Positions 3,455-46,531 of a DNA stretch of 56,584 bases are shown here, in pieces. The DNA is from Rhodospirillales bacterium (GTDB taxonomy: Bacteria; Pseudomonadota; Alphaproteobacteria; Rhodospirillales; Defluviicoccaceae). Numbering within the stretch: the stretch's first letter is position 1; every line of letters begins with the position of its first letter. The DNA is taken from positions 1 through 56,584 of the forward strand of contig REES01000096.1 of assembly GCA_007694935.1 (NCBI GenBank), read 5' to 3'. The notes under the pieces were generated by a model. The model was not told the DNA's origin. It made no database searches and saw only the letters and a program-made list of their open reading frames with translations. A program made the translations under genes and the position numbers.

Positions 3455-3622
3455 TGGTCTTGGCCCGTGACCCGAGCGGGTGCCGGGCCAGAACCGCTCA
3501 GGCTGGGTATCCCTTCTAACATCCCTGACAACAAAATACCTGGAAGGGGAAGGCCCCACCCGCAAGACATGAACAACTTCTTCCAAACCAATCAAAATGT
3601 ACACAGAAAAGGGATCGCGATC

Positions 3623-4258
3623 GTGACCATACACACTCAGATGCAGCTTGAAGATGACTCCGAGGTGCTGCTGTCACGCCTTCGCCCGAGCCGGGCGGAG
3701 GCGGAAGCGGCGGTACGAACACTAATACTATGGGCGGGCGACGATCCGGCGCGCGAGGGACTCGCCGGGACGCCCGACCGGGTCGTCCGCGCCTATGAGG
3801 AGTTCTTCTGCGGCTATCAGGAGGACCCGGCTGCTCTGCTGTCCCGGACCTTCGAGGAGGTGGATGGCTACGACGAGATGGTGCTCCTTCGGGACATCGG
3901 TTTCGAGAGCCACTGCGAGCACCACATGGTCCCGATCATCGGCAAGGCTCATGTCGCCTATCTGCCGGACCGGCGCGTCGTCGGCATCTCCAAGCTCGCC
4001 CGGGTGGTCGAGGCGTTCGCCCGGCGCCTGCAGATCCAGGAAACCATGACGGCGCAGATTGCCAACACCATCGAACAGGTCCTGGAGCCCCGGGGTGTCG
4101 CGGTGGTGGTGGAGGCCCAGCACCAGTGCATGACCACCCGGGGCATCCGCAAGCCGGCGGTCTCCATGGTGACCAGCCGCATGCTGGGGGCGTTCCGCGA
4201 CGATCCGATGACCCGTCGGGAATTTCTTGCCATGATTTCTCCCTCGTCAGGGCGCTGA
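3623..4258 (+). CDS. folE: GTP cyclohydrolase I
   Basis: Converts GTP to dihydroneopterin triphosphate, the first step of folate/pterin synthesis. The product is 211 residues from the chosen start. The zinc ligands are visible: Cys98 and His101 in [10 protein letters not shown], and Cys169 in [21 protein letters not shown] near the C-terminus is also typical. I chose GTG at 3623, with AAAGGGA 8 bases upstream, giving the usual family length. Alternatives are ATG at 3641 (shorter) and ATG at 3569 (18 residues longer), and the N-terminal extension up to 3467 looks non-conserved. Placement after rpoH suggests stress co-expression, which is inference. Confidence 0.93.
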
Positions 4259-9486: not shown

Positions 9487-11085
9487 ATGAGTGTTGAAGC
9501 AGGGACGCACAATGGCCGGATTGGGGTAGGTCAAGCCTCCTGGTTTGCCCTGGCGGCTGCGGCTGTATTGGTCATTGTCGGCTCATGGATCGTTTTTTAT
9601 GATGGCCTCTCCCAAATGGTGAAGATGTGGGGCCGGGAGGAGTACAACTACGCTTACCTCGTTCCGCTGATCAGTGCCTGGCTGATCTGGCAAAAGCGGG
9701 GCGAGCTGGCCGAGATCGGCGTCCAGGGGGCCTGGACCGGGGTGCTGGTGATCGCGGGCGGGCTGTTGCTGGCGTTCTTCGGCGAGCTCAGCACGATCTA
9801 CACCATCATCCACTATGCCTTCATCGTGACCATCGCGGGGGTCGCGCTGGCCTGGTTCGGCTGGCGGGGACTGGTGGTGCTGGCGGCACCCCTGTTCTAC
9901 CTGGTGTTCATGGTGCCGCTGCCGGAGTTTCTGTACCAGCAGGTCTCCGGGCGGATGATGCTGATTTCCTCGGAACTGGGCGTCGCCATGCTCCGCCTGT
10001 TCGGGATCAGCGTGTTCCTGGAGGGCAACGTCATCGACCTCGGGGTCTACAAGTTACAGGTCGTGGAGGCGTGCAACGGCCTTCGCTACCTGTTTCCCCT
10101 GCTCAGCTTCGGGTTTCTCTGCGCCTACCTCTACAAGGGGCCATTGTGGCACAAGCTGCTCCTGATGGCCTCCACCGTCCCCATCACGATCGTCATCAAC
10201 AGCTTCCGGATTGCCGTCACCGGAGTCCTCGTCGAGAATTTCGGCGTCGAGATGGCCGACGGCTTCATGCATTTCTTCGAGGGGTGGGTGATTTTTCTTG
10301 CTGCCGTGGCCCTGTTCTTCGGGCAGATGGTGGTACTGGCGCGGTTGAGCGGCCGTCGCGCCGGGCTTTCGGAACTGCTGCGCCTGGAACTGGTGCTGCC
10401 GCAGCGGGGGGTAAGCCGCAATGCCGGGTGGCTCCGCCCCAGCCGCCCGTTGATTGCCGGGGTGGCGCTGTTGACGGTGACCGCGGTGGCGGTGGCGGGC
10501 CTGCCGGAAAGGAAGGAATACATTCCAGACAGGCGGGATTTTGCAGCTTTTCCGATGCAGGTTGGAAGCTGGCGGGGCCAGGAACTGATCCTCGAGAAGA
10601 AGTACGTCGATGCCCTCAGGATCGACGATCACATTCTTGCCAACTTCCACAACTCGGACGACCCGATGCATGTGAACTTCTACGTGGCCTATTACGGCTC
10701 GCAGCGCAAAGGTGCTTCCGCGCATTCGCCACGGTCGTGTATCCCCGGCGGCGGCTGGGAGATCACGAGCCTGACCAACCGCGTCATCGACGGTGCCGGG
10801 CCCAACGGTGAGCCCATCCGGGTGCAGCGCGCCGTGATCTCTCTGGGGTTGGCGCAACAGGTGGTCTACTATTGGTTCGACCAGCGGGGACGCCACCTCA
10901 CCAATGAATATCACGTCAAGCTGATGATCTTCTGGGATGCCATGACCCGCAACCGGACCGACGGGGCGCTGGTCCGGCTGGTGACGCCGGTGGCACCGGG
11001 CCAGACGGTGGAGAGCGCCGACACCCGGCTGGAGGACTTCATGCGGAGCGTCTACACCAAGGTCGAGGGGTTCATCCCGAGTTGA
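9487..11085 (+). CDS. xrtD: Exosortase fused to EpsI domain (XrtD type)
   Basis: An integral membrane cysteine transpeptidase-like enzyme of the exosortase family, predicted to process C-terminal sorting tails of exported proteins at the inner membrane. Of 532 residues, roughly 1-300 form the multi-pass exosortase domain with the triad Cys196 (VVEACNGLRYLFP), Arg241 (INSFRIAVTG) and His262 (MHFFEGW). Residues about 330-532 form an EpsI/DUF3485 domain with HSPRSCIPGGGWEI. This fusion is characteristic of XrtD, which recognises VPLPA-type tails. No sorting-tail protein or EPS cluster is adjacent, so its substrates lie elsewhere. The start has only a weak ribosome-binding site. Confidence 0.92.
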   Translation: MSVEAGTHNGRIGVGQASWFALAAAAVLVIVGSWIVFYDGLSQMVKMWGREEYNYAYLVPLISAWLIWQKRGELAEIGVQGAWTGVLVIAGGLLLAFFGELSTIYTIIHYAFIVTIAGVALAWFGWRGLVVLAAPLFYLVFMVPLPEFLYQQVSGRMMLISSELGVAMLRLFGISVFLEGNVIDLGVYKLQVVEACNGLRYLFPLLSFGFLCAYLYKGPLWHKLLLMASTVPITIVINSFRIAVTGVLVENFGVEMADGFMHFFEGWVIFLAAVALFFGQMVVLARLSGRRAGLSELLRLELVLPQRGVSRNAGWLRPSRPLIAGVALLTVTAVAVAGLPERKEYIPDRRDFAAFPMQVGSWRGQELILEKKYVDALRIDDHILANFHNSDDPMHVNFYVAYYGSQRKGASAHSPRSCIPGGGWEITSLTNRVIDGAGPNGEPIRVQRAVISLGLAQQVVYYWFDQRGRHLTNEYHVKLMIFWDAMTRNRTDGALVRLVTPVAPGQTVESADTRLEDFMRSVYTKVEGFIPS

Positions 11086-15487: not shown

Positions 15488-17941
15488 TCAGGCCGCAGCC
15501 CCCCGGCCATCCGCCGCCGCCGGCCGCCAGCGGCGCAGCCGAAGCGCGTTGGTGACCACCGAGACGCTGCTGAAGGCCATCGCTGCGCCGGCGATCACCG
15601 GGCTCAGCAGGCCCGCCGCCGCCAGCGGCAGCGCCGCGACATTGTAGATGAACGCCCAGAACAGGTTCTGGCCGATCTTGCGGTGGGTCGCCCGGGAGAC
15701 GCCGAGCGCGTCGGCCACCAGGCGCGGGTCCGGGCGCATCAGGGTCACCGGCGCCGCCTGCATGGCCACATCGGTGCCGGCGCCGATGGCAATGCCGACG
15801 TCGGCGGCGGCCAGCGCCGGCGCGTCGTTGATCCCGTCACCCACCATTGCGACGATCCGACCCTGACCCTTTAGCCGCTCCACTTCGGCGGCCTTGTCCT
15901 CGGGCATGACCTCGGCCAGGACCCGCTGGATACCCACCATCCGAGCCATCGCCTGGGCGCTGCGGACGTTGTCGCCGGTGATCATCACCGTTTCAATCCC
16001 GCTCCGCTCGAGCAGCGCCACCGCCTCGGCCGCGCCGTCGCGAAGGCGGTCGCCGGCGACGATGCAGCCCAGCAGCCGCGGTGCCGCGCCGGCCTCCGCT
16101 ATCCACATCACCGTTCTGCCCTCGGCTTCGGCCGCGCGGGCTTGGTCTTCGAGGGGAGCGGTCTCTATCCCGGAAGCAGCGAGAAGCGACCGGTTGCCAA
16201 TCACCAGCTCGCGGCCGTCGACCCGTGCCTTCAACCCGCGCCCGGCCACCGCCTGGAACGTTTCCGGCCCGGGCAGGTCCACATCACCCAGTTCGGCCAG
16301 CACCGCCCGGGCCAGCGGGTGCTCGCTTCCCTGCTGGGCCGTGGCGGTCAGGTGGAGCAGCGCCGGACCGTCCCCGTCCACGGCATGGATGGCGGTGACC
16401 CGCGGCCGACCCTCGGTCAAGGTGCCGGTCTTGTCGAATACCAGGGTGTTCACCCGGTGCGCCCGCTCCAGTGCCGTCGCGTCCTTGATCAGGATACCGC
16501 TGCGGGCGGCTACGCCGGTGCCCACCATGATCGCGGTCGGGGTGGCCAGGCCCAGCGCGCAAGGACAGGCAATCACCAGCACGGTGACCGCGTGGATGAT
16601 CGCCATCTCGGCCGACACCCCGGCCCACCACCAGCCGGCCAGCGTGACCAGGGCGATCACCACCACCACCGGCACGAATACCGCCGCAACCTGGTCCACC
16701 AGGCGCTGCACCGGCGCCTTGCTGGCCTGGGCCCCCTGCACCAGGGCGATGATCCGGGACAGGGTGGACTGGGCTCCCACGCGGGTGGTGCGGATGCGCA
16801 GCAGGCCGCTGCCGTTGATGGCGCCGCCGGTGACCGCATCGCCCACATCCTTGGTCACCGGCAGGCTCTCGCCGGTGATGAGGGATTCGTCCACCTGGCT
16901 GATTCCGTCGATGACGTCCCCGTCCACCGGGATCCGTTCGCCGGGACGCACCACCACCACATCGTCGACGGCGACCCGGTCGACCGCCACCTCGACCTCC
17001 CTGCCGTCGCGGATGATGCGCGCCCGCTCGGGCCGGAGCCGCATCAGGGCGCGGATCGCCGCCGTGGTCCCCCGCTTGGCCCGGCTTTCCAGCCAGCGTC
17101 CCAGCAGCACCAGGGTGATGATCGCGGCCGAGGCCTCGAAGTACAGGTCGCCGTTGTCCGGCCCCGGCGCCAGGGTGTGATAGACGCTGAGGCCGTACGC
17201 GGCGCTGGTGCCCATGGCCACCAGCAGATCCATGTTGCCGGTGCCGGCCTTGAGCGCGCCCCAGGCCGCCCGATAGAAGCGTGCCCCGGCCCAGAACTGC
17301 ACCGGGGTGGCCAGGGCAAGCTGCACCACCGCCGGTAACGCCCAGTGCAGGCCGAACGGGTGCCACAGCATCGGCACCACCAACGGCACGGTGAGAACGG
17401 CGGCAATGGCGAAGTTGACCAAGTCCCGACGGGCGCGCTCTTGAGCGGCATCCTCCTCCTCGCTGCCGGCGGTGGCTTCGTCGGTAGGGGCGGCGTCGTA
17501 GCCGGCCCTCCGCACGGCCGCAACAAGGTCATCGACCCCGGCCGCACCCGCCGCAATCGTGACCATCGCCCGTTCGGTGGCGAGCGATACCTCGGCGTCG
17601 GTGACCCCCGGCACCGCCCGCAGGGCCTTTTCGACCCGACCGACGCAGGACGCGCAGGTCATGCCGTCGATGCGGACTTCCACGGTCTCGCTCGGAACGG
17701 CATATCCGGCACGCCGGATCGCTTCGGCCAGATGTTCCGGAGCGACCCGCCCGGGCTCCACCGTCACCTCGGCCCGTTCCGTCGCCAGGCTCACCGATGC
17801 CGCCCTCACCCCGGGGAGCCGGTGCAGTGCCCGCTCTACCCGGGACACACAGGACGCGCAGCTCATGCCTTCAATCCGCAGAGAAAGGACCTCCGTCCGG
17901 TTCTCGTCTGCGGCTGCGGTGGTTGTGACCACCGTGTCCAT
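15488..17941 (-). CDS. copA: Copper-exporting P1B-type ATPase
   Basis: An inner-membrane Cu(I) efflux pump of 817 residues. Two N-terminal HMA domains carry CASC at residues 28-31 and 96-99. The membrane CPC motif is at 459-461 ([15 protein letters not shown]), the phosphatase TGES at 356-359, and the phosphorylation site DKTGT starts at Asp503. [11 protein letters not shown] is present near the C-terminus. I placed the start at 17941 because AAAGGAGGG lies 6 bases upstream; the frame remains open 84 codons further but looks non-coding. It is divergent from trpG across 232 bases and is followed by copZ. No CueR-type operator was recognised. Confidence 0.95.
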
Positions 17942-18173
17942 GCCGTGCCCTCCTTTCGCCCCACCGTGGTCCGCCCCGGCAACCGGCCGGGACGCGACGC
18001 TCGGCCGCCCGCATTGATCTGGGTATGGGATCGGGGCGGGAGAAGGCCAGCCCCTGCCGGCACCTGTTCTTGACGCCGACGCCGGCCTGGGGGCATGGTG
18101 CGGCGGCATCGGGCGGCAATTGCCGAACAGGGCTGGGGCCCGTCGTCTTCGCCGCATCCTTGCGGAGCTCCGG

Positions 18174-18761
18174 ATGTTCCTGCTGATCGACAACTACGAC
18201 AGCTTCACCTACAACCTCTTTCATCTACTGGGTGAGGTCGGGGTCCAGACGGTGGTCAAGCGCAACGACGCCCTGTCGGCCGAGGCGGCGCTTGCGCTCG
18301 GGCCGGAAGCGATCGTCATCTCCCCCGGCCCCTGTGATCCCGACCGCGCCGGCATCTGCCTGGATCTGATCCGGCGGGCGGCCGGGCGGGTGCCGATCCT
18401 CGGGGTTTGTCTCGGCCACCAGAGCATCGGCCAGGCGTTCGGCGGACGGGTGGTGCGGGCGCCGGCGCCGATGCACGGCAAGGTCAGCGCCATCCGTCAC
18501 CGCGGCACCGACCTGTTCGAGGGCCTGTCGTCTCCGTTCACTGCCAACCGCTACCATTCGCTGATGGTGGCGCGGGACGGCCTGCCGTCCTGCCTCAAGA
18601 TCACCGCGGAGAGCGAGGACGGGGTGATCCAGGGCCTCGCCCACGTGGACCATCCTGTGTACGGGGTCCAGTTCCATCCCGAGAGCATCGCCACCGAACA
18701 CGGCCATGCGCTGGTTGCCAATTTCAAGCGGCTGGCCGGCTCTGCCCGGGCGGCAGCGTGA
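18174..18761 (+). CDS. trpG: Anthranilate synthase component II (glutamine amidotransferase)
   Basis: The class I glutamine amidotransferase subunit that delivers ammonia to TrpE. Its 195 residues start with [13 protein letters not shown]. The nucleophile Cys is in [15 protein letters not shown] and the His/Glu pair in [15 protein letters not shown]. Start ATG at 18174, with GGAG upstream; the in-frame extension to 18120 is not conserved. It starts a compact trpG-trpD-trpC run whose last two genes overlap. It may also serve a para-aminobenzoate synthase, as some TrpG/PabA proteins do. Confidence 0.96.
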
Positions 18762-26481: not shown

Positions 26482-27902
26482 GCGTTACCGTCCGCTTTGC
26501 CCCCAGCCCCACCGGCCGGCTGCATGTGGGCAATGCCCGCACGGCGCTGCTGAACTGGCTGTTCGCCCGCCGGCATGGCGGCCGCTTCATCCTGCGCCTG
26601 GATGACACCGACCTCGAGCGCTCTGAGGAGGCGCACGCGGTATCGATCCAGTCCGATCTGCGCTGGCTGGGTCTCGACTGGGACCTGATGGACCGGCAGT
26701 CGGCGCACATCCCACGGTACCGCGATGCGTTCGAGTGTCTTCGGGATGCCGGCCGAGTTTATCCGTGCTACGAGACACTGGAGGAGCTGGAGTTCAAGCG
26801 GCGCCGGCTGCTGGCGCGCGGCCGGCCGCCGATCTATGACCGCGCAGCCTTGAACCTCAGCGACGACGACCGCCAGCGGCTGGAGGCGGGGGGCCGGCGG
26901 CCGCACTGGCGGTTCCGCCTGGATCACGGCGACGTCACCTGGGACGACTTGGTGCGTGGGCCGCAGCAACTCGGCGCAGGCCGCATCAGCGACCCGGTGC
27001 TGGTGCGGGGCGACGGGACCTTCCTCTACATGCTGCCGTCCGCGGTGGACGACATTCGCCATGGTGTCACCCATGTCATCCGCGGCGAGGATCACGTGGT
27101 CAACACCACGGTGCAGATCCAGATTCTCAGGGCGCTCAGCCACCCGCCGCCGGCGTTCGCGCACGTGCCGCTGCTGACCGACCTGTCCGGCAAGGGCCTG
27201 TCCAAGCGGATCGGCTCGGTCACGCTGGATTCCCTGGCAGATACGGGAATCGAGCCGATGGCGCTGGCCGCCTACCTGGCCGCCATCGGAACGGCGGAAC
27301 CACCGGATCTGTGCCCGACTCTCGGTGATCTCGCCCGGTCGTTCGATATCGCCAAGTACGGCCGGGCGACACCTAAGTTCGACGAAGCCCAGCTCTGGCA
27401 CCTGAATGCACGTTGGCTGCAGACCCTTCCCTGGGATGCCGTGGCAGCCCGCCTCCATGCCATGGGTCTGAACCGGGCGGACCCGGCGTTCTGGAACGCC
27501 GTGCGCTCGAATCTGGAACGGTTCGAGGATGTGGCCGGCTGGTATGCGGTGTGTTTCGAGGACATTCTGCCGATCATCGATGATCCTGAGTTTGCGCGGG
27601 CGGCGGCCGAGCTGCTGCCGCCCGAACCCTGGACGGACGCCACCTGGTCGGCATGGACGGCTGCCGTGGTGCGCGTCTCCGGACGGAAGGGGCGGGCGCT
27701 GTTTCGGCCGCTGCGCCTGGCGTTGACAGGGGAGGAGCATGGCCCCGAGCTCAAGACCCTGCTGCCTCTGATCGGTCGTGAGTTGGCTTGGCAGAGACTG
27801 ACGGCGCGGAATGCCCGGACCTCTCAGGCGATGCCACCGCTGGCCCATCCCGTGCGGATGGCCGATGCCGCCGAACCGGGTCCGGGTCGAGGCCGGGGCT
27901 AG
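26478..27902 (+). CDS. gltX: Glutamyl-tRNA synthetase
   Basis: A class I aminoacyl-tRNA synthetase of 474 residues. The HIGH motif appears as HVGN (residues 16-19, in FAPSPTGRLHVGNART) and the KMSKS loop as GLSKRIGS. Alphaproteobacteria often have two GluRS paralogues, one misacylating tRNA-Gln; the sequence here does not settle which this is. The last 25 or so residues are Pro/Gly/Arg-rich and look unconserved. The true start is the ATG overlapping the nadE stop, although the frame is open far upstream. Confidence 0.95.
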   Translation: MSVTVRFAPSPTGRLHVGNARTALLNWLFARRHGGRFILRLDDTDLERSEEAHAVSIQSDLRWLGLDWDLMDRQSAHIPRYRDAFECLRDAGRVYPCYETLEELEFKRRRLLARGRPPIYDRAALNLSDDDRQRLEAGGRRPHWRFRLDHGDVTWDDLVRGPQQLGAGRISDPVLVRGDGTFLYMLPSAVDDIRHGVTHVIRGEDHVVNTTVQIQILRALSHPPPAFAHVPLLTDLSGKGLSKRIGSVTLDSLADTGIEPMALAAYLAAIGTAEPPDLCPTLGDLARSFDIAKYGRATPKFDEAQLWHLNARWLQTLPWDAVAARLHAMGLNRADPAFWNAVRSNLERFEDVAGWYAVCFEDILPIIDDPEFARAAAELLPPEPWTDATWSAWTAAVVRVSGRKGRALFRPLRLALTGEEHGPELKTLLPLIGRELAWQRLTARNARTSQAMPPLAHPVRMADAAEPGPGRGRG

Positions 27903-27943
27903 CGCCGCGCGCCGGCGCCGGCCGGTGGCTTCGAGGGGGATGC

Positions 27944-29314
27944 ATGGACCTTCACGTCTACAACACCCTGAGTCGGCAGAAGGAGCAGTTCCGGCCGCTC
28001 GATCCCGACCATGTCCGGATGTACGTCTGCGGGCCCACGGTGTACGACCTTGCCCACATCGGCAATGCCCGGCCGGTGGTGGTGTTCGATGTTCTGTACC
28101 GTCTGCTGCGGCGGCTGTATCCCAAGGTCACCTACGTCCGCAACATCACCGACGTGGACGACAAGATCATTGCCGCCCACCGCCGGACCGGCGAGCCGAT
28201 CGCCGAGATCACCCGGCGGACGACCGAAGCATTCCATCGGGACATGGCGGCGCTCGGTGCCCTGCCGCCGGACGTGGAGCCGCGGGCGACCCGGCACATC
28301 GGCAAGATGATCGCGATGATCCAGGTGCTGATGGACGGCGGCTACGCCTATGCTGCCGACGGCCACGTGCTGTTCAGCGTGCCGTCATGGCCGGACTACG
28401 GCCGGCTGTCCCAGCGCAACCGCGACGAGCTGATTGCCGGCGCCCGCGTGGAGGTGGCGCCCTACAAGCGGGATCCCGCCGACTTCGTGCTGTGGAAACC
28501 ATCCACCGAAGACGTTCCCGGCTGGGAGTCACCGTGGGGCCACGGCCGCCCCGGCTGGCACATCGAGTGCTCCGCCATGAGCCAAGCCTATCTCGGCGAG
28601 ACCTTCGACATCCACGGCGGCGGCCAGGACCTGATCTTTCCCCACCACGAGAACGAGATCGCCCAGAGTACCTGCGCTCATGGCGGCCGGCCGTTCGTCC
28701 GGTACTGGATGCACAACGGCTACTTGATGGTGGAGGGGGAGAAGATGTCCAAGAGTCTCGGCAACTTCTATACCGTGCACGACCTGTTGAAGACGCTGCC
28801 GGGAGAAGCGATCCGCCTGGTGCTGTTGCAGACCCACTATCGGCAGCCGCTGGACTTCACCCACGATGCCGTGGCGCAGGCCCGGCATGCGCTGGATCGG
28901 CTGTATGGGGCGCTTCGCGGGATCGATGCGCCGGCGACCGAGCCGCCCGAGCCGGTTCTGCACGCCCTGGCGGACGACCTGAACACGCCACTGGCCCTCA
29001 GTCACCTGCACGAGACAGCAGCTGCCCTTCACCGCAGCAGGGACGCGCAAGACCGGTACCGGCAGGCCGGGCGGCTTCGCGCGGCCGGGGCGGTACTCGG
29101 CCTGCTGCAGGGGGATCCGGAAGCTTGGTTCCGCTGGCAGCCTGAAGGCGCAAAAGGTGTTCCCGATGACGAGGTCGAGCGCCTCATCGCCGAGCGCGCC
29201 AAGGCCCGCAAGACCCGCAACTTCGCTGCTGCCGACGCGATACGGGACCGTTTGCAGGAGGCCGGTGTGGTGCTTGAGGATACGCCCGCCGGAACGGCCT
29301 GGCGTCGAACGTGA
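27944..29314 (+). CDS. cysS: Cysteinyl-tRNA synthetase
   Basis: A class I synthetase of 456 residues with YVCGPTVYDLAHIGNAR (zinc Cys and HIGH variant HIGN), GWHIECSAMS, GGGQDLIFPHHENEIAQS and GEKMSKSLGNF. GAGGGGGA precedes the ATG at 27944, 41 bases after gltX. It appears to be the last gene of the DAHP synthase-pncB-nadE-gltX-cysS rightward run. Confidence 0.97.
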   Translation: MDLHVYNTLSRQKEQFRPLDPDHVRMYVCGPTVYDLAHIGNARPVVVFDVLYRLLRRLYPKVTYVRNITDVDDKIIAAHRRTGEPIAEITRRTTEAFHRDMAALGALPPDVEPRATRHIGKMIAMIQVLMDGGYAYAADGHVLFSVPSWPDYGRLSQRNRDELIAGARVEVAPYKRDPADFVLWKPSTEDVPGWESPWGHGRPGWHIECSAMSQAYLGETFDIHGGGQDLIFPHHENEIAQSTCAHGGRPFVRYWMHNGYLMVEGEKMSKSLGNFYTVHDLLKTLPGEAIRLVLLQTHYRQPLDFTHDAVAQARHALDRLYGALRGIDAPATEPPEPVLHALADDLNTPLALSHLHETAAALHRSRDAQDRYRQAGRLRAAGAVLGLLQGDPEAWFRWQPEGAKGVPDDEVERLIAERAKARKTRNFAAADAIRDRLQEAGVVLEDTPAGTAWRRT

Positions 29315-37086: not shown

Positions 37087-38220
37087 ATGACGGAGCTTAC
37101 GGAACGGGACGTGCTCGACGCGCTCGCCACGGTGATTGACCGGGAACGGTGCCAGGACGTGGTGACTCTTGGCATGGTCAAGGGCCTTCGCATCCAGGAT
37201 GGCCACGTGATGTTCGCCCTCGAGGTCGAGGCGAGTCGGGGGCCACGGCTGGAACCGCTGCGCAAAGAGGCGGAGGAGGTGGTGCACAAGCTCAAGGGTG
37301 TGGTCACCGCCCGCGCCATGCTCACGGCCGAGCGGCCGGCGTCAACCGGCGGGCCTGCGGCACCGCGGCGCTCCGCGGGCGCCCCGCAACGCCAGGCGCC
37401 GATGCACGGTGAGTTGCTGCCGGAGGTCAAGGCGATCGTGGCGGTGGCGTCCGGCAAGGGCGGTGTCGGGAAGTCCACCACCGCCGTCAACCTGGCCGTG
37501 GCGCTGGCCCGGCAGGGGCACCGCACCGGCTTGCTGGATGCCGATGTGTACGGCCCGTCGATGCGCCGGCTGCTCGGCATCGCCGGCAATCCCGGCTCCA
37601 GTGATGGGGTGCGCCTGGATGCGATGGAGAGGTTCGGCATCAAGGCGATGTCCATGGCCTTCCTGGTGGAGGAGGAGACGCCGATCGTCTGGCGCGGGCC
37701 GATGGTACAGTCGGCGCTTGAACAGATGATGCGCGACGTTGCCTGGGGGGCTCTCGATGTCCTCGTAGTGGATATGCCGCCCGGCACCGGCGACACCCAG
37801 CTCACCATGGCCCAGCGGGTGCCGCTGGCCGGCGCGGTGATCGTGTCGACGCCCCAGGACATCGCCCTGATCGATGCCCGCAAGGGCCTCAACATGTTCC
37901 GGAAAGTGGACGTCCCGGTGCTCGGCATCATTGAGAACATGAGCTACTTCATCTGCCCGCACTGCCAGGGGCGGACAGACATTTTCGGCCACGGCGGCGC
38001 CGAGGAGGAGGCCCAGCGGCTTGGCGTCGACTTCCTGGGCGGCATCCCGCTGGATGTGGCGATCCGCGAGACCTCGGACGGTGGCACCCCCATCGTCGTC
38101 GCCGACCCGGACGGCGAGCATGCCAAGGCCTACCTTGGCATCGCAAGCCGGGTTTGGGAGAGGGTCGAAGCGGTGATCGCCGGGCGTGCCGCCTCGGCGC
38201 CGCGAATCGTCATCCAATAG
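37087..38220 (+). CDS. mrp: Mrp/ApbC-type iron-sulfur cluster carrier P-loop ATPase
   Basis: A 377-residue cytosolic Fe-S carrier. An N-terminal DUF59/FeS-assembly domain (about residues 1-85) is joined by an Ala/Pro-rich linker to the P-loop domain with GKGGVGKSTTAVNLA. A cluster-binding Cys pair follows in ICPHCQG. GGAGAGGGAGATC precedes the ATG. It likely delivers [4Fe-4S] clusters to client enzymes. It is divergent from hflK and followed after 144 bases by the Zur-box-preceded GTPase gene. Confidence 0.95.
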   Translation: MTELTERDVLDALATVIDRERCQDVVTLGMVKGLRIQDGHVMFALEVEASRGPRLEPLRKEAEEVVHKLKGVVTARAMLTAERPASTGGPAAPRRSAGAPQRQAPMHGELLPEVKAIVAVASGKGGVGKSTTAVNLAVALARQGHRTGLLDADVYGPSMRRLLGIAGNPGSSDGVRLDAMERFGIKAMSMAFLVEEETPIVWRGPMVQSALEQMMRDVAWGALDVLVVDMPPGTGDTQLTMAQRVPLAGAVIVSTPQDIALIDARKGLNMFRKVDVPVLGIIENMSYFICPHCQGRTDIFGHGGAEEEAQRLGVDFLGGIPLDVAIRETSDGGTPIVVADPDGEHAKAYLGIASRVWERVEAVIAGRAASAPRIVIQ

Positions 38221-38285: not shown

Positions 38286-38302
38286 ATGTTATACTATAAC
38301 AT
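38286..38302. promoter_or_regulatory. Zur box (zinc uptake regulator operator)
   Basis: ATGTTATACTATAACAT is a perfect 17-base palindrome around a central C, 63 bases before the GTPase start. It fits the TGTTAT-N3-ATAACA type of operator bound by alphaproteobacterial Zur. It stands out as A/T-rich within GC-rich surroundings. No zur gene is in the window. Confidence 0.8.
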
Positions 38303-38364
38303 TCGGGTTGACGGTGCCGTGGCGCTGAGGTGTTATCCGGCCGGTCCACCGAGCGGAGGCTGTC

Positions 38365-39492
38365 ATGTCCTTGATCCCCGTGACCCTGCTGACCGGCTTT
38401 CTCGGCAGCGGCAAGACCACCCTGCTGAACCGGGTTCTCCGGGATCCGCGGTTCAGCGACACGGCGGTGGTGATCAACGAGTTCGGTGAGATCGGGCTCG
38501 ACCACTTCCTGGTGGAGATCAGCCGCGAGCAGACGGTGCAGATGACCTCGGGCTGCCTCTGCTGCACCGTCCGCGGCGACATCAGCAAGACCCTTCTGAA
38601 TCTGTATTCCCGGCGCACCATGGGCGAGGTGCCGACCTTCTCTCGCCTGATCGTGGAGACCACCGGGCTCGCCGACCCGGCGCCGGTGATTCACACCCTG
38701 ATGGGCGATCCCCGCCTCGCCCGCCGGTATTCCCTCGGCGGCATTATCACCACCGTCGACGCGGTCACCGGCGCGGGGACTCTCAAGACCCAGTGGGAGA
38801 GCCTGAAGCAGGCCGCCGTTGCCGATCGCCTGGTCCTCACCAAGACCGACCTGGTGGGCGATGATGGCCCGTCGCAAGCGGCACTCGCGGTGCTGCGCTC
38901 CGACCTGTTGTCGATCAATCCGGGTGCGGCGGTCCTGGATCGGGCCGCGCCGGATTTCGACCTGCGCCGACTGTTCGACACCGCACTCTATGATCCCGCC
39001 ACCAAGTCGTTCGACGTGCAGGGCTGGCTCAAGGCCGAGGCTTACGGTGATGACGGGCACGATGCGGGAGACCACCATGCCGACGGCCACAAGCACCACC
39101 GCCACCACGGTGACCAGGATGTGAATCGCCACGGCGATTCCATTATCGCGTCCAGCCTGATCCTGGAGGAGCCGATCGGCACAACCGCGTTCGCGGTGGC
39201 CTTGGAACTGCTGGCCGCCAACGCCGGGCCGGACCTGCTCCGGGTCAAGGGGATCGTCAACCTGAAGGAACAGCCGGGCATGCCGGTGATCGTGCACGGG
39301 GTGCAGCACGTGTTCCACCCGCCGGTGCGTCTCGATGCCTGGCCGACCGATGACCAGCGCACCAAGCTGGTGTTCATCACCCGCAACATACCGAAGCACA
39401 CGCTCGACGTGTTCTTCCGGGCCTGGACCACGGTGAGCGACGAGGTGCTGGCTGCGGTCAGCGGGGACGATCCGTCGGCCGCCGCCGGCTGA
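38365..39492 (+). CDS. COG0523 (CobW-family) metal-chaperone GTPase, probably zinc-related
   Basis: A 375-residue G3E GTPase. The Walker A is [12 protein letters not shown] (about residues 11-22), the COG0523 metal motif CLCC is at residues 64-67, and the NKxD-type motif appears as LTKTDL. A His-rich loop at residues 232-256 has nine His and several Asp. A CobW C-terminal domain follows. GGAGG lies just before the ATG. The upstream Zur box argues for induction under zinc limitation and a role in delivering zinc (ZNG1/ZigA-like) rather than cobalamin synthesis. Client proteins cannot be named from sequence. Confidence 0.93.
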
Positions 39493-39622: not shown

Positions 39623-41194
39623 TCAATGGCGGAAATGGCGGAGGCCGGTGAACACCATGGCCAGGCCGTGGTCGTCGGCGGCGGCGATCACCTCGTCATC
39701 CCGGACCGATCCCCCCGGCTGGATGACCGCGGTGGCACCGGCCTCGGCACAGGCGATCAGCCCGTCCGGGAACGGGAAGAAGGCGTCGGACGCAACCACC
39801 GCGCCCTCGGTTCGGGGCATCGCCTCGCCCGCGGCTTGTCGCGCCTCCTCGGCCTTCCAGGCGGCGAGCCGGGCGGAGTCGACCCGGCTCATCTGGCCGG
39901 CTCCGACGCCGACGGTGGCCCCGTCCTTGCAGAACACGATGGCGTTGGACTTGACGTGCTTGGCCACCCGGTAGGCGAACATCAGGTCCGCCATCTCGGC
40001 GTTGGTCGGGCTGCGACGGGTCACCGTGCGCACCTCGGCGGCGGTCACGGCATTGTCGCGGCCTTGCAGGAGATAGCCGCCGGCGAGGCTCCGGACGGTC
40101 ATGCCGGGGGCCGCCGGATCGGGCAGGCCGCCCGCGTCCAGCAGGCGCAGGTTCTTCTTCGCGGCCAGGATCGCCTTCGCTTCGTCGTCGACCGCGGGGG
40201 CGATCACCACCTCGAGGAAGATCTCGGCGATCGCCCGGGCGGTGGCGGCATCCAGCGGCCGGTTGACGGCGACGATGCCGCCGAACGCGCTGACCGGATC
40301 GCAGGCGAAGGCCTTGGCATAGGCGTCGGCCAGGCTGGTGCCGATGGCGACGCCGCAGGGGTTGGCGTGCTTGATGATGGCGACCGCGGGCTCGTCGAAC
40401 TCCGCCACAAGCTCGAACGCCGCGTCGGTATCGTTCAGGTTGTTGAAGCTGAGCTCCTTGCCTTGGATTTGCCGGGCGCTGGCGACCCCGGGGCGCGCCT
40501 CGCCACCGACATAGAACGCGGCGCTCTGGTGCGGGTTCTCGCCATAGCGCAGCATCTGCCGGCGGCTGCCGGCCAGCACCAGCCGTTCCGGCAGCGGCTC
40601 ATCCAGCACGCTAGCGAACCAAGCGGCGATGGCCGAGTCGTATGCGGCCGTGTGGGCGTAGGCCTTGGCGGCGAGGGCTTGGCGCAAGGCGTCGGGAACA
40701 CCGCCGCCGCCCACCTGCATCGCCTCCATCACCCGGGGATAGTCGGCGGCATCGACCACCACGGTGACGAAGGCATGGTTCTTGGCGGCAGCGCGGATCA
40801 GCGCCGGGCCGCCGATATCGATGTTCTCGATACAGGCGTCGAACGGCTGACCCGCCGCCACCGTTGCCTCGAACGGATAGAGGTTGACCACCAGGAGGTC
40901 GATCGGGGCGATGCCATGGAGCTGCATCGCCTGCTCGTGCTCGGGGTTGTTGCGGATACCGAGCAGGCCGCCATGGATGCGGGGATGCAAGGTTTTTACC
41001 CGTCCGTCCATGATCTCCGGGAAGCCGGTGTGGGCGGAGACCTCGACGACGCTGACACCCGCTTCGGACAACGCCCGGGCGGAACCGCCGGTGGACAGGA
41101 TCTCCACCCCCTGGCTCGTGAGGAAACGGCCGAAGTCGGCCAGTCCGGTCTTGTCGGAGACGGAGACGAGGGCGCGGCGTATGGGGAACGGCAT
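39623..41194 (-). CDS. purH: Bifunctional AICAR transformylase/IMP cyclohydrolase
   Basis: Carries out the last two steps of de novo IMP synthesis. Its 523 residues comprise the N-terminal IMP cyclohydrolase ([33 protein letters not shown]) and the C-terminal AICAR transformylase ([50 protein letters not shown]). The ATG at 41194, with GGAAAGAG upstream, gives the conserved N-terminus; a TTG 27 bases earlier is also in frame. It ends a leftward run that begins with the heparinase-type gene, but polysaccharide genes now separate the two. Confidence 0.97.
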
Positions 41195-41296
41195 CGGGTC
41201 GACTCTTTCCGAGAGTGGCAAGGAAGATCGCGCCGGGCCCTATAGCAGACGCCGGGGACCGCGCACACCCTTGGAATGGCCTCCCGTCAACTGCGA

Positions 41297-43246
41297 TCAG
41301 GCGGAGGCGGCGAGGGGGCTTGCGCCGGCGCCGGCGCCGTCCTGGTACTCCGGCACCAGCCGCCGGATCACGGCAACGAGGCCCTCGGCATCGGCCGCAT
41401 CGCACGCCGCGGCCAGTTGCTCCAGGTATGGCAGGAACGTCCCGAGATCGGCCGGTTGCGGGGCCGCGAGCCGCAACCCAGGATTGTCGGTCGGCACTGC
41501 ATCCTCGCCCGGGTTGAACAGTTCCTCGAACAGCTTCTCGCCCGGCCGCAGGCCGATGAAGCGGATGTTGACGTCCACATCGGGGGTGAGCCCGGCCAGG
41601 CGGATCATCTGGCGCGCGAGCTCGACGATGCGAACCGGCTCACCCATGTCCAGGACGAAGATCTTGCCGGCAGACGCTACCCCGTCCTGGGCCAGGACGG
41701 AGGCTTCCAGGATCAGCTCCACCGCCTCCCGCACCGTCATGAAGTAGCGGCGCATGTCCGGGTGGGTGACGGTGATCGGTCCGCCGTTGGCAAGCTGGCG
41801 CTGGAACAGCGGCACCACCGACCCGGTGGAGCCGAGCACATTGCCGAAGCGGACGGTGACGAAGCGGGTTCCCTGGCCGCCATCCCGCCGCATGTCCAGG
41901 GCCTGGCAGTAGCGCTCGGCGATGCGCTTGGAGGCGCCCATGATGCTGGTGGGATTGATCGCCTTGTCGGTGGATACCATCACCATGGTGCCGGCACCGG
42001 CAGCCACCGCGGCATCCGCCACGTTGATCGAGCCGAACACATTGGTGGCAATGCCTTCGAACGGGTTGGCTTCCACCAAGGGCACGTGCTTCAGGGCCGC
42101 GGCGTGGAACACCAACTCCGGCCGGAGGTCCAGGAACAGCCGCTGCAGCCGGTCGCGGTTGCGGACGTCGGCGATAACGGGGGCGGTGCGGAGCCCGGGA
42201 TGCCGGCTGCGCAACTCGCCCTCGGTGGTGTAGAGGTTGAATTCCGACTGTTCGATCAGCAGCATCTCCGCCGGCTTGAACCCGGCGAGTTGGCGCACCA
42301 GTTCGCTGCCGATGCTGCCGCCGGCGCCGGTCACGGCGACCCGCCGGCCGGTGATCAGCGCCCGCATCGCGTCGCGGTCGAGCGGCGTTTGCGGGCGGCA
42401 GAGCAGGTCCTCGACCGCGATCGGCCGAACCTCCACCCGATCCGGATGTCCCGCCCTGAAGTCGGTCACCCGGGGCGCCCGGGCCATGGTCAGGCCGAGC
42501 GCGGTCGCCGAGTCCAGCAGCCGGCGGACCAGCGCGCCGTCCGGCTTGTCCTTGGCGAGGACCAAGCGTTCCGGCGGCATCCCCGACGCTTTCACCGCCT
42601 CCACCACGCGGGGAAGGTCATCGACCACGCCCAGCACGGGCACACCGTGGAGGCGTTGCCCGACCCGCTTCTGCTTCTCGGCGACGATGCCGACGACGTC
42701 ATAGACGCACTTGGCATCTCCCTTGATACCGCGGATGAACAACTCCGCCTCCGAGCCGGAGCCGACCACCAGCACCGGGATGCGATGGCCGGCTTCTGCA
42801 GCCTGCCGCCGCTCCAGACGGCGATCCTTGCGAATCCGGTACAGGAACCGAGGCCCGCCCAGCAGTGCCATCAGGACAAACCAGTTGATCAGCGGCACCG
42901 ACCGCGGCATCGGCTCGAGCCGGGTCCAGACGAACAGGACGACAAGGAACGCGACAATGGTCAAAGTGGCGGCACGCGCGATCGCCATGAGATCGGGTAT
43001 CGATGCATAGCGCCAGATGCCCTTGTAGAGGCCGGTCAGCAGAAAGACCCCCGCCGCGATGACCGTGAACACCGCGGTGGCGATTATCAGATCGGGCAGG
43101 GAGAAGTAGAAGTAGATGGTGTCGCCGACACGCAGGTAGAGGGCGAGGATGAACGACAGCGCGGCCGCCACGAGGTCGTGGCCGAACACCAGCCAGCCGC
43201 GCCGTGGGAACACGAAATGCTGAAGGATTGCCTGCTTGCTGATCAC
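41297..43246 (-). CDS. Membrane-anchored nucleotide-sugar 4,6-dehydratase (WbpM/CapD/FlaA1-like)
   Basis: A 649-residue polysaccharide-biosynthesis protein. About four N-terminal transmembrane helices (starting GHDLVAAALSFILALYLRV) precede a nucleotide-binding domain with VLVVGSGSEA. The SDR-type catalytic domain follows (TGAGGSIGSELVRQ, FHAAALKHVPL, STDKAINPTSIMGASKR, RFGNVLGSTGSVVPLF). Relatives dehydrate UDP-GlcNAc as the first step to 2,4,6-trideoxy or related sugars. The GTG start at 43246 overlaps the stop of the preceding epimerase gene (GTGA); the open frame upstream of it is not conserved. Confidence 0.92.
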   Translation of the reverse strand: MISKQAILQHFVFPRRGWLVFGHDLVAAALSFILALYLRVGDTIYFYFSLPDLIIATAVFTVIAAGVFLLTGLYKGIWRYASIPDLMAIARAATLTIVAFLVVLFVWTRLEPMPRSVPLINWFVLMALLGGPRFLYRIRKDRRLERRQAAEAGHRIPVLVVGSGSEAELFIRGIKGDAKCVYDVVGIVAEKQKRVGQRLHGVPVLGVVDDLPRVVEAVKASGMPPERLVLAKDKPDGALVRRLLDSATALGLTMARAPRVTDFRAGHPDRVEVRPIAVEDLLCRPQTPLDRDAMRALITGRRVAVTGAGGSIGSELVRQLAGFKPAEMLLIEQSEFNLYTTEGELRSRHPGLRTAPVIADVRNRDRLQRLFLDLRPELVFHAAALKHVPLVEANPFEGIATNVFGSINVADAAVAAGAGTMVMVSTDKAINPTSIMGASKRIAERYCQALDMRRDGGQGTRFVTVRFGNVLGSTGSVVPLFQRQLANGGPITVTHPDMRRYFMTVREAVELILEASVLAQDGVASAGKIFVLDMGEPVRIVELARQMIRLAGLTPDVDVNIRFIGLRPGEKLFEELFNPGEDAVPTDNPGLRLAAPQPADLGTFLPYLEQLAAACDAADAEGLVAVIRRLVPEYQDGAGAGASPLAASA

Positions 43247-44229
43247 CGTCCCCGCCGCTCGGCCGCGAACCACGCCGCAGTCGACTGCAAAGCTTGTACC
43301 ACATTCCAGGTGGGGGACCACCCCAGTTCTTCGCGGATTCGGCTATCGTCGACCCGAAACGACGACAGCAGCCGCGAGACCGCCGCACCACCACCGGTCA
43401 AGGCGCCGCCGAGCCGCAGCAGCGCGCCCGGCACCGGCAGCAGGGGCACCTTCCTCTGCATGCCATCCGCCAGGATGCGGACGATCTCCGCGGTCGACAG
43501 GTCCTCGCCGTCCCGCACCAGATAGGTCCTGCCCGCGGCCGCCGGGTGGGTGATACCGGTGACGATGGCGTCCGCCAGATTGCCGACGTGGATCAGGCTC
43601 CGCCGGTTGCGCACGCGGCCGAACGGCAGGACCGGCGCCCGGGCCGTCAGCTTCAGCAGGGCGAGAAAGTTGGCCTTGACACCGGGGCCGTACACCAGCG
43701 GCGGCCGCAGCACGACGATTTCCGGAGGCGGGACCCGATCGCGGGTTTCGACCGAGACCGCGGCCAGAGCCTGCTCCGCCTGCCACTTCGATTGGGCGTA
43801 GAGGTCCTGGGGATTCGGCATGTCGGTTTCACGAAACGCCTGATCGGCGGCGGTGCTGTCGCCCATCACCTTGGCGGAGCTGATGTAGACGAATCGGCGC
43901 ACACCGGCCCGGGCGGCATCCAGCGCCAGCTTGAGGGTGCCCTCCACGTTGATCCGCTGGTATTCCCGCAAGGTGGCCTCATCCGCCGCTTCGTCGACGA
44001 CATGGGCGCGCCCGGCCAAGTGGACCACGGTATCGACGTCCCGCAGCACCCCGCTCCAGTCGATACGCGGCCCGATCCCGGGGATGGAACGTGCCTCCAC
44101 CTGTGCCATGGCCTCCGCCAGCCGGGGGTGGCGGGTGGCCACCGCCACCGTCATGCCGTGGCCGGCAAGGACCGGGCACAGCGCCTGTCCGATGAAGCCG
44201 GTGCCGCCGGTGACCAGAACGCGTCGCAT
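43243..44229 (-). CDS. NAD-dependent epimerase/dehydratase (sugar-nucleotide reductase type)
   Basis: A 328-residue extended SDR with TGGTGFIG at the N-terminus, VVHLAGRAHV, and the catalytic YAQSKWQAE. RNRRSLIHVGNLADAI towards the C-terminus is typical of enzymes that act on UDP-hexosamine-derived 4-keto sugars (WbpV/WbfT-like). Next to a WbpM-like dehydratase and a WecA-like transferase, a role in making the sugar that the transferase loads is likely. The exact product is unknown. It lies 6 bases downstream of the transferase gene. Confidence 0.88.
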   Translation of the reverse strand: MRRVLVTGGTGFIGQALCPVLAGHGMTVAVATRHPRLAEAMAQVEARSIPGIGPRIDWSGVLRDVDTVVHLAGRAHVVDEAADEATLREYQRINVEGTLKLALDAARAGVRRFVYISSAKVMGDSTAADQAFRETDMPNPQDLYAQSKWQAEQALAAVSVETRDRVPPPEIVVLRPPLVYGPGVKANFLALLKLTARAPVLPFGRVRNRRSLIHVGNLADAIVTGITHPAAAGRTYLVRDGEDLSTAEIVRILADGMQRKVPLLPVPGALLRLGGALTGGGAAVSRLLSSFRVDDSRIREELGWSPTWNVVQALQSTAAWFAAERRGR

Positions 44230-44235
44230 GGGGAA

Positions 44236-45285
44236 TCAGGGTTCCTTGCCTGGGGGGTCGTGGGACCCTGAGCGCGGGCCGGCCGCAACCCGCTTGGGGG
44301 GCGCCAGGACCATAAGCAGGATGCCGACGGCGACGCAAGCGGCGGCCAGCGCCGCTCCGCCGTGGCCCAGTGCCGCCAGCGCCGCCAGCGCCATCAGGAT
44401 CATGTTGACCGCCAGCACGCGCCGAACCACCCAGCCGTGGCCGACGCCGGCCTGCACCGCCCGCTGGTAGAAGTGCTCGCGGTGAGCCTGCCAAGGCCGT
44501 GCGCCGCGCATGGTCCGCCGCGCCAGGGTGATCGACGCATCGGCCAGATAGTACAGGGGCAGGATCAGCGCCGCGACCGGCTGGCCCGACGCCGCCAGGT
44601 GAAGCAGGAGCCAGCCGAGCAGAAAGCCGAGCGGGATGCTGCCGACGTCGCCCAGGAACAGTCGCGCCGGCGGCCAGTTCCAGACGAGGAACCCGAGCGC
44701 GGCCGCCGCCATCACCAGCCCGAACAGCGGCAGGCCGAGGCCGAGGCCGGCGATCGCGGCCACCACCGCCACGCCGAGACCGAGGGTTGCCGTCTCCACC
44801 CCGGCGATCCCGTCGATGCCGTCCATGAAGTTGAACAGGTTGATGAACCACAGCCACAACAGGCCCGCCGCCGCCACATCCAGGGGTGCCGGCAGCCAGC
44901 CCGCGAACACCGGTCCCGGCAGCGGGGCAGCGGCCAGCACCAGCGCCACCGCCGCCGCCTGGGTACCGAGACGGAACGCCGCCGACAGGCCGCGCAGGTC
45001 GTCCATCCAGGAAACCGCTGCCAGCACCGCCGCGGCTGTACACACGAAGACGGCCTCCCGATGCGTCGGTACCACGCCCAGTGCCACGGCAAGCCAAGCC
45101 GCCAATACCACCGGTACCACGGCAAGGCCGCCACCCCGGGGGGTGGCAACGGCGTGGCTGCTCCGGGCATTGGGGTGGTCGAGCACCGCCCACCCCAGCA
45201 GCAGCCGGCGCACCGCACCGGTGCCGAAGGCGGTTGCGGCGAACACGGCGGCCGCGAGCGCGGCGATCGCGACTGCGGCCGTCAC
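44236..45285 (-). CDS. Glycosyl-1-phosphate transferase, WecA/MraY (GT4) family
   Basis: A polytopic inner-membrane enzyme (349 residues, about 10-11 helices) predicted to transfer a sugar-1-phosphate to undecaprenyl phosphate, starting a surface glycan. Motifs in order are LDHPNARSSH, SWMDDLRGL (Asp pair), NLFNFMDGIDGIAG, RLFLGDVGSIPLGF and the cytoplasmic HREHFYQRAV. MraY itself is less likely given the context. It begins one base after the methyltransferase stop, so the genes form one transcript. Confidence 0.92.
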   Translation of the reverse strand: MTAAVAIAALAAAVFAATAFGTGAVRRLLLGWAVLDHPNARSSHAVATPRGGGLAVVPVVLAAWLAVALGVVPTHREAVFVCTAAAVLAAVSWMDDLRGLSAAFRLGTQAAAVALVLAAAPLPGPVFAGWLPAPLDVAAAGLLWLWFINLFNFMDGIDGIAGVETATLGLGVAVVAAIAGLGLGLPLFGLVMAAAALGFLVWNWPPARLFLGDVGSIPLGFLLGWLLLHLAASGQPVAALILPLYYLADASITLARRTMRGARPWQAHREHFYQRAVQAGVGHGWVVRRVLAVNMILMALAALAALGHGGAALAAACVAVGILLMVLAPPKRVAAGPRSGSHDPPGKEP

Positions 45286-45286
45286 G

Positions 45287-46531
45287 TTACGCCAAGCGCG
45301 GTTCGGGCAGCGGGACGATGAATCGCCCGCCCACCCCTAGACAGGCGCGGTGGCGGGCGACCATGGCCTCCGCATGTTCCCAGGCGAACACGATCACCGC
45401 ATCGGGCGGGCGCTGGTACAGCGCCTCCGTGGGTCGGATCGGGATGTGCAGGCCGGGCGTGCAAAGGCCCTGCTTCCAGGCGGAGTCGTCGGCGATGAAG
45501 TCGATGACATCGGGGCCGAGGCCGAGCTGATACAACAGGGTCGTCGACTTGGCCGGAGCGCCGAGGCCGACGATCAACCCACCCGCCTGTCGTACCGGTT
45601 GCAGCAGCGACCACAGTGCCCGCCGGGTGGCTTCGAGACGGCGGGCGAGACCCCGGAACGCGCCCACCGTGGCCAGGCCGGCACGCGCCTCCAGTTCGCT
45701 CAGCGCCTGCACCGTCGGGTCCAACCGCTGCCCGCTCCCCAGCCGGCGGACGAAGCCGCGAAGCCGACCGTTCAGCCGCTGGATCGCGACCAGCTCCATG
45801 TCCCAGGAATGGAAGAAGCGGACCAGCGGTGCCACCGTGTGGTAGTCCAGGTTCTCGTGGCGGATGGCATCCACCAGACCCTGCTCGACGATGTCGAGCA
45901 GATAGGCGACGTCGAACACCAAAGTGCCGTCGCGGGCGAGAAGCTGCTGCACCCCCTCGATCACGCCGGCGAGGTCATCGGCATGGGCGAGGATGTTGTG
46001 GGCGATGATCAGCTCGGCCCGACCACGCTCCTCCTCGATGCGCTGGGCGATGCCGGGGGAGAAGAAGCCGGGAAACGTGGGTACGCCGCCGCTGATGGCG
46101 CTGCGGGCGAGGTCCACTGCCGGCTCGATGCCTTGCGGGCGCATTCCCGCTTCGTCGAAGCGGCGGAGCATGGTGCCATCGTTGGAGCCGATACCGACCA
46201 CCAGCGCACCCCGCCGCGGCCGCAGCCGATGGATCAGGTCATCGGCCCAGGCATCGGAGGATTCGACGCCACCCGGGACCTCCGCGGTGGCCGATCGATG
46301 GCGCTGGAACAGCCATTGGGGATCGAGCACGTCGAGCAGCTGGGCATGGCCGCATTCGTCGCAGAGGTGGATGTCCAAGGGAAAGCGCGCCTGAGGCGTG
46401 TCCCGGTCGGCGGCATCGACGAAGGCGTTTGCCGGCGGGGTCGGCTCCAGCGCGAGGGCCAGGGTGAGGGCGGTGCTGCCGCAGAGCCGGCAGGTGGCAC
46501 GCCGCCGGACCGCCTCAACCATCGGCGTCAT
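45287..46531 (-). CDS. SAM-dependent C-methyltransferase-type protein with zinc motif
   Basis: A 414-residue protein with the three-part layout of sugar C-methyltransferases. The N-terminal zinc-binding segment has CRLCG (Cys14, Cys17) and HLCDECGHAQL. The middle SAM-binding domain contains VVGIGSNDGTML and IAHNILAHADD. The C-terminal domain has VGLGAPAKSTTLLYQLG. Such enzymes act on keto-deoxysugar nucleotides, and the neighbouring dehydratase and epimerase fit that. The start overlaps the heparinase gene by 17 bases; an ATG three codons in is an alternative. Confidence 0.88.
   Translation of the reverse strand: MTPMVEAVRRRATCRLCGSTALTLALALEPTPPANAFVDAADRDTPQARFPLDIHLCDECGHAQLLDVLDPQWLFQRHRSATAEVPGGVESSDAWADDLIHRLRPRRGALVVGIGSNDGTMLRRFDEAGMRPQGIEPAVDLARSAISGGVPTFPGFFSPGIAQRIEEERGRAELIIAHNILAHADDLAGVIEGVQQLLARDGTLVFDVAYLLDIVEQGLVDAIRHENLDYHTVAPLVRFFHSWDMELVAIQRLNGRLRGFVRRLGSGQRLDPTVQALSELEARAGLATVGAFRGLARRLEATRRALWSLLQPVRQAGGLIVGLGAPAKSTTLLYQLGLGPDVIDFIADDSAWKQGLCTPGLHIPIRPTEALYQRPPDAVIVFAWEHAEAMVARHRACLGVGGRFIVPLPEPRLA

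Follow-up and report, generated by a model that had tools for sequence, protein, structure and literature searches.

In the stretch of 56,584 nucleotides from a Rhodospirillales bacterium that was analyzed here (hereafter the window), a perfect palindrome, ATGTTATACTATAACAT, is located in front of a gene for a COG0523 GTPase. The palindrome is a predicted operator for the zinc regulator Zur, and expression of the gene is very likely induced by zinc starvation. The combined reading of a Zur operator and a GTPase for zinc delivery is the best explanation of the data, and we hold it with considerable confidence. The features of the locus are given in Table 1.

Table 1. Features of the GTPase locus, in window coordinates.
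Feature	Position	Strand	Basis
Zur operator (predicted), perfect 8-1-8 palindrome ATGTTATACTATAACAT, core GTTA-N5-TAAC	38286..38302	.	Shuffles, genome scan, clade conservation
Tentative promoter TTGACG-N17-TGTTAT, immediately after the operator	38308..38336	+	Read from sequence; same-genus counterpart
GGAGG, probable ribosome-binding site, with a 5-nt spacing to the ATG	38355..38359	+	Read from sequence
COG0523 (G3E) GTPase, 375 aa, CLCC and His-rich loop 232-256; probable zinc metallochaperone	38365..39492	+	Motifs, domains

The GTPase and its metal

The original prediction of a CobW-family GTPase with CLCC and nine histidines within residues 232-256 was borne out by both motifs and domains. 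The Walker A, ExxG and [NT]KxD motifs are present as GFLGSGKT at residue 11, ETTG at residue 98 and TKTD at residue 159, and CLCC at residues 64-67 matches the CxCC metal motif that has been described as a mark of the COG0523 family (PMC2770081). The stretch 232-256 contains exactly nine histidines, and the Pfam domains cobW (PF02492, 147 bits) and CobW_C (PF07683, 63 bits) both score over their cut-offs.

Among solved structures, only chains of E. coli YjiA were matched by sequence. This protein belongs to the same family, and the GTPase part aligns with it (1nij) over residues 2-206 (4.1e-39), but the score is below the NCBIfam equivalog cut-off for YjiA proper (NF008578; 169.9 vs 361). The equivalog cut-off for ZigA was not reached either (NF038288; 99 vs 600), and identity with CobW was rejected, with a score of 117.9 vs a cut-off of 332.1 for TIGR02475. 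The genome's own CobW is a separate gene on contig C64 that scores 489.7 with the same model (cut-off 332.1). The genome has eight matches to PF02492, of which the five strongest, including the GTPase of the window, were examined. Genes elsewhere in the genome presumably encode HypB, UreG and a MeaB-like protein, named from their sequences rather than by a family search.

Other COG0523 relatives, such as CobW, UreG and HypB, handle Co or Ni, and a Zur-controlled GTPase could likewise be devoted to another metal, or could store zinc rather than deliver it. A NicO-family gene (PF03824) follows the GTPase gene in the related locus L166 and a DUF1007 gene follows it in L191, which would fit with such a role. 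We nevertheless consider this unlikely, since the control by Zur and the regulon shared with ZnuABC point to zinc, and since the genome has a separate CobW. A zinc metallochaperone is also the family reading for Zur-linked COG0523 proteins (PMC2770081, PMC6103462), and by analogy with these relatives the GTPase is a probable zinc metallochaperone that would bind zinc and transfer it to other proteins.

The gene is preceded by an mrp/NUBPL gene (37087-38220) and followed by purH (39623-41221), which faces it on the other strand. FolE (GTP_cyclohydroI, 3467-4258) and CysS (27788-29314) are zinc enzymes that are both encoded in the window, and neither gene has a Zur box, the genome holding two palindromes only. 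They had been put forward as possible clients of the GTPase, but nothing speaks for this except that they share the same 56 kb. Elsewhere in the window, a gene for a P-type ATPase with heavy-metal-associated domains (15488-18193, minus strand) is located between a trpE-like gene and downstream trp genes, and an exosortase with a fused DUF3485 domain (9487-11085) is encoded about 30 kb from a polysaccharide-type cluster (41297-46531).

The operator and the sign of control

The 17-mer, a perfect palindrome as originally noted, consists of two 8-nt arms that flank one central base, and its end (38302) is 62 nt from the ATG of the GTPase gene (38365). The core corresponds to GTTA-5N-TAAC, described as the proteobacterial Zur motif (PMC4176598). 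A mechanical promoter scan found no promoter, and the tentative promoter in Table 1 was read from the sequence; a genome of the same genus has TTGACC-N17-TGTCAT at the corresponding place. If the promoter is real, the operator is located directly upstream of the -35 element. In the account given for Caulobacter crescentus, Zur-repressed sites overlap promoter elements and a Zur-activated site is located upstream of the -35 element (PMC4176598), so that the placement observed here is that of the activated site and counts against repression.

Activation of the GTPase gene by Zur from such a site is nonetheless very unlikely in our view. The promoter is unproven, the boxes of the members of its clade (see below) are placed at variable distances, 17-62 nt from the assigned start, and the known Zur-controlled COG0523 genes go up when zinc is lacking (PMC5387054). 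By analogy with these genes, repression is the likelier sign of control.

Zur and the second operator

The genome from which the window comes is 97.6% complete, with 3.09 Mb in 145 contigs, and contains exactly two sites with the core GTTA-N5-TAAC, one at the GTPase gene and the other at znuA/zur-znuC-znuB. A control pattern with a reversed core occurs five times in the same genome, which counts against the Zur reading. When the full 17-mer was searched at up to three mismatches, there were two genomic sites and none for the control. A scan for the palindrome and for zur and znuABC had been proposed along with the original prediction, and the second palindrome was found in the intergenic region between divergent znuA and zur-znuC-znuB on contig C116, where a Zur homologue adjoins znuA, znuC and znuB.

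The regulator encoded on C116 matches the structure of E. coli Zur (4mtd, 1.9e-29). Its best NCBIfam match is Zur, yet below the equivalog cut-off (123.2 vs 167 bits), which was passed by none of the 100 genomes searched, its own included. In an alignment judged by eye, the regulator keeps two CxxC pairs and a regulatory-site cysteine, with FIAC, CRGC and CRSC aligned to YVLC, CDRC and CAAC in E. coli Zur. Cysteines C88 and C103 are needed in Zur (PMC4219657). From its place and its operator, the protein is likely to act like Zur. The ZnuA protein of the genome (L006:6816-7904) has a long loop rich in His and Asp. FolE2 (PF02649) was not found in the genome, and a single HisI was identified.

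Conservation in other genomes

Palindromes with at most two mismatches were found in 78 of the 100 genomes, including the one studied here, and their positions were listed for 43 of the 78. Among these 43 genomes, the palindrome is within 300 bp of a match to the Zur model in 25 and within 2.5 kb in 28, which ties the motif to Zur independently of the gene in the window. A Zur match is defined here as a match to the model at 1e-10, and the weaker matches could represent other members of the FUR family; no such match was found in four of the 43 genomes (G018, G043, G052 and G090), which counts against the Zur reading.

When 140 COG0523 proteins were arranged in a quick tree without bootstrap, the GTPase of the window fell in a clade of eight members (SH-aLRT 95), of which L191 and L166 were flagged for their letter composition. 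One locus (L009), whose contig has the same length as that of locus L169 of genome G001, was taken as the same record and was left out of both the tree and the counts of upstream palindromes. In all eight members, the 150 nt before the gene contain a Zur-like palindrome at four mismatches or fewer, one of them weak (0, 3, 3, 3, 2, 4, 2 and 1 mismatches). The weak box, with four mismatches in L167, was equalled by 30 of 1000 shuffles, as compared to 0 or 1 for the other boxes of the clade; L167 was first grouped as box-less in the tree and is counted here with the clade. Among the other homologues, boxes with up to three mismatches were found for only 6 of 132, and the remaining 126 have six or more mismatches. 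The genome of the same genus has kept both the mrp-like neighbor and a box with an intact core at the GTPase gene, and another core-keeping box is located beside its zur gene.

As a point against this conservation, close homologues of the GTPase are absent from most genomes of the same family, only G006 (1.9e-48) among G002-G010 giving a match better than 1e-25, and the gene is thus patchy in the family, having been either lost or acquired. In the clade relatives L166, L191 and L198, the GTPase gene is followed by NicO-like genes, and in two of them also by DUF1007-like genes; these names were assigned by eye for L198 and, in L191, for the NicO-like gene. L166 also has hisI.

The conservation data also bear on which regulator uses the operator. 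Three FUR-family proteins are encoded in the genome, and the site could in principle serve Fur or Irr, in which case the GTPase would answer to iron. The other two proteins score best as IrrA (over the cut-off) and as Fur (under the cut-off), and Fur or Irr control was rejected on these model scores. Given the twin site at zur/znuA, and given that 25 of the 43 genomes with listed positions have a palindrome beside a match to the Zur model, we consider control by either of them highly improbable. The reading of the palindrome as a Zur box, on the other hand, gains support from the location of the sole other palindrome found in the genome in the zur/znuA intergenic region and from the retention of the box in front of the closest GTPase relatives, and Zur would be expected to bind the box as in related bacteria.

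A chance match has a negligible probability: when the window was shuffled 100 times by dinucleotides, no match to the 17-mer at up to three mismatches arose, none of 1000 shuffles of the upstream stretch equalled it, the twin site and the conservation in relatives argue against chance, and no points in its favor were found.

Comparison with known systems

The locus is a further case of the known Zur-linked COG0523 arrangement, now in a new organism, and is in that respect an ordinary finding. In Paracoccus denitrificans, also an alphaproteobacterium, a Zur motif is located before the COG0523 gene pden1338 and in the divergent zur/znuA promoter, the expression of pden1338 is increased when zinc is limiting, and gel shifts showed binding of Zur to several promoters, that of zur/znuA among them (PMC5387054). 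However, the Paracoccus gene heads an operon of seven genes with an ABC transporter, whereas the gene in the window stands alone, and the arms of the motif are slightly different (PMC5387054).

The zrpW-zrpX unit of C. crescentus, another alphaproteobacterium, resembles the locus in having a COG0523 protein, repression by Zur and an operator core of GTTA-N5-TAAC. It differs in that zrpX probably shares a transcript with zrpW, a putative transporter gene that is repressed by Zur, and in that ZrpX has two CobW domains (PMC4176598). With the Zur-linked COG0523 proteins described by Haas et al. (2009), the locus shares the family, the CxCC motif, the His stretch, the link to Zur and the znu genes; unlike that set, as presented there, the two-site regulon found here contains no paralogs of zinc enzymes (PMC2770081).

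hisI in the Zur locus of relatives

In many relatives, the GTPase gene follows hisI, often in the order znuA-hisI-GTPase and divergent from zur. Loci such as L158-L164, L172 and L192 have hisI between znuA (or zur) and the COG0523 GTPase gene, behind a Zur-like palindrome; the gene names at these loci were given partly by eye, with PF01502 tested in one. Within up to 2 kb upstream of hisI, palindromes with at most four mismatches were found in 17 of 25 such loci, two of which have four mismatches and could be due to chance, as compared to none of 25 control stretches downstream of the GTPase gene at up to five mismatches.

HisI was identified in 91 of the 100 genomes of the order (96 copies), 82 of which also have a Zur match, and in 42 of these 82 the HisI gene is within 4 kb of the Zur-model match. 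No second HisI was found in 40 of these 42 genomes, and 28 of the 40 are at least 95% complete. Thus, hisI seems not to be in the Zur locus as a spare copy, and the spare-paralog reading, as in Haas et al., is wrong for most of these genomes.

The catalytic zinc of HisI is held by three cysteines, described as universally conserved in the source (PMC8102479). All 40 sole HisI copies near Zur keep the first of these, in the motif DCD. In contrast, the only HisI in the genome of the window (L218:1381-1848, contig C124), which is encoded away from the Zur locus, has DDDQD in place of the usual DCDxD, such that one zinc-site cysteine is an aspartate, and DDD is found in all eight genomes of the same family for which a HisI was found. 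For single-copy HisI proteins, we counted 40 DCD near and 32 DCD far from Zur, and 0 DDD near and 13 DDD far, where near means within 4 kb of a Zur-model match and far means elsewhere, on another contig or with no Zur match; L280, in which the HisI motif was not found, was left out. Eight of the 13 DDD genomes are from the family of the window and hence are not independent, and the counts are uncorrected for kinship. Two genomes, G065 and G073, have both HisI types, and in each of them it is the DCD copy that adjoins a GTPase gene, although in G065 a weak FUR match (89 bits) is located 3.8 kb from the DDD copy. A rule by which a DDD-type HisI always means that hisI is located away from zur is suggestive only. 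We did not find the hisI pattern described in the full text of openly licensed papers.

One speculation is that HisI is the chief client of the GTPase lineage, and that in the family of the window the DDD-type HisI eases the need for zinc, so that the GTPase would stand alone under Zur control and serve other clients. We consider this unlikely.

Proposed mechanism and implications

We hypothesize that when zinc is ample, zinc-loaded Zur would occupy the operator at the GTPase gene and keep the gene off. As zinc drops, Zur would leave both this operator and the znuA/zur-znuCB operator, the only other one found, so that zinc import and the GTPase would be switched on together. The GTPase would then bind zinc, probably via the CLCC motif and the His-rich loop, and hand it to zinc enzymes whose activity has to be maintained, using GTP binding and hydrolysis.

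There is thus good evidence for linking to zinc starvation a gene that would otherwise be annotated as CobW-like, and the Zur regulon of this bacterium looks lean, with two operators identified by this search, one for import (znu) and one for allocation (the GTPase). The hisI lead is the part worth following up, and would provide the COG0523 proteins with a testable client.
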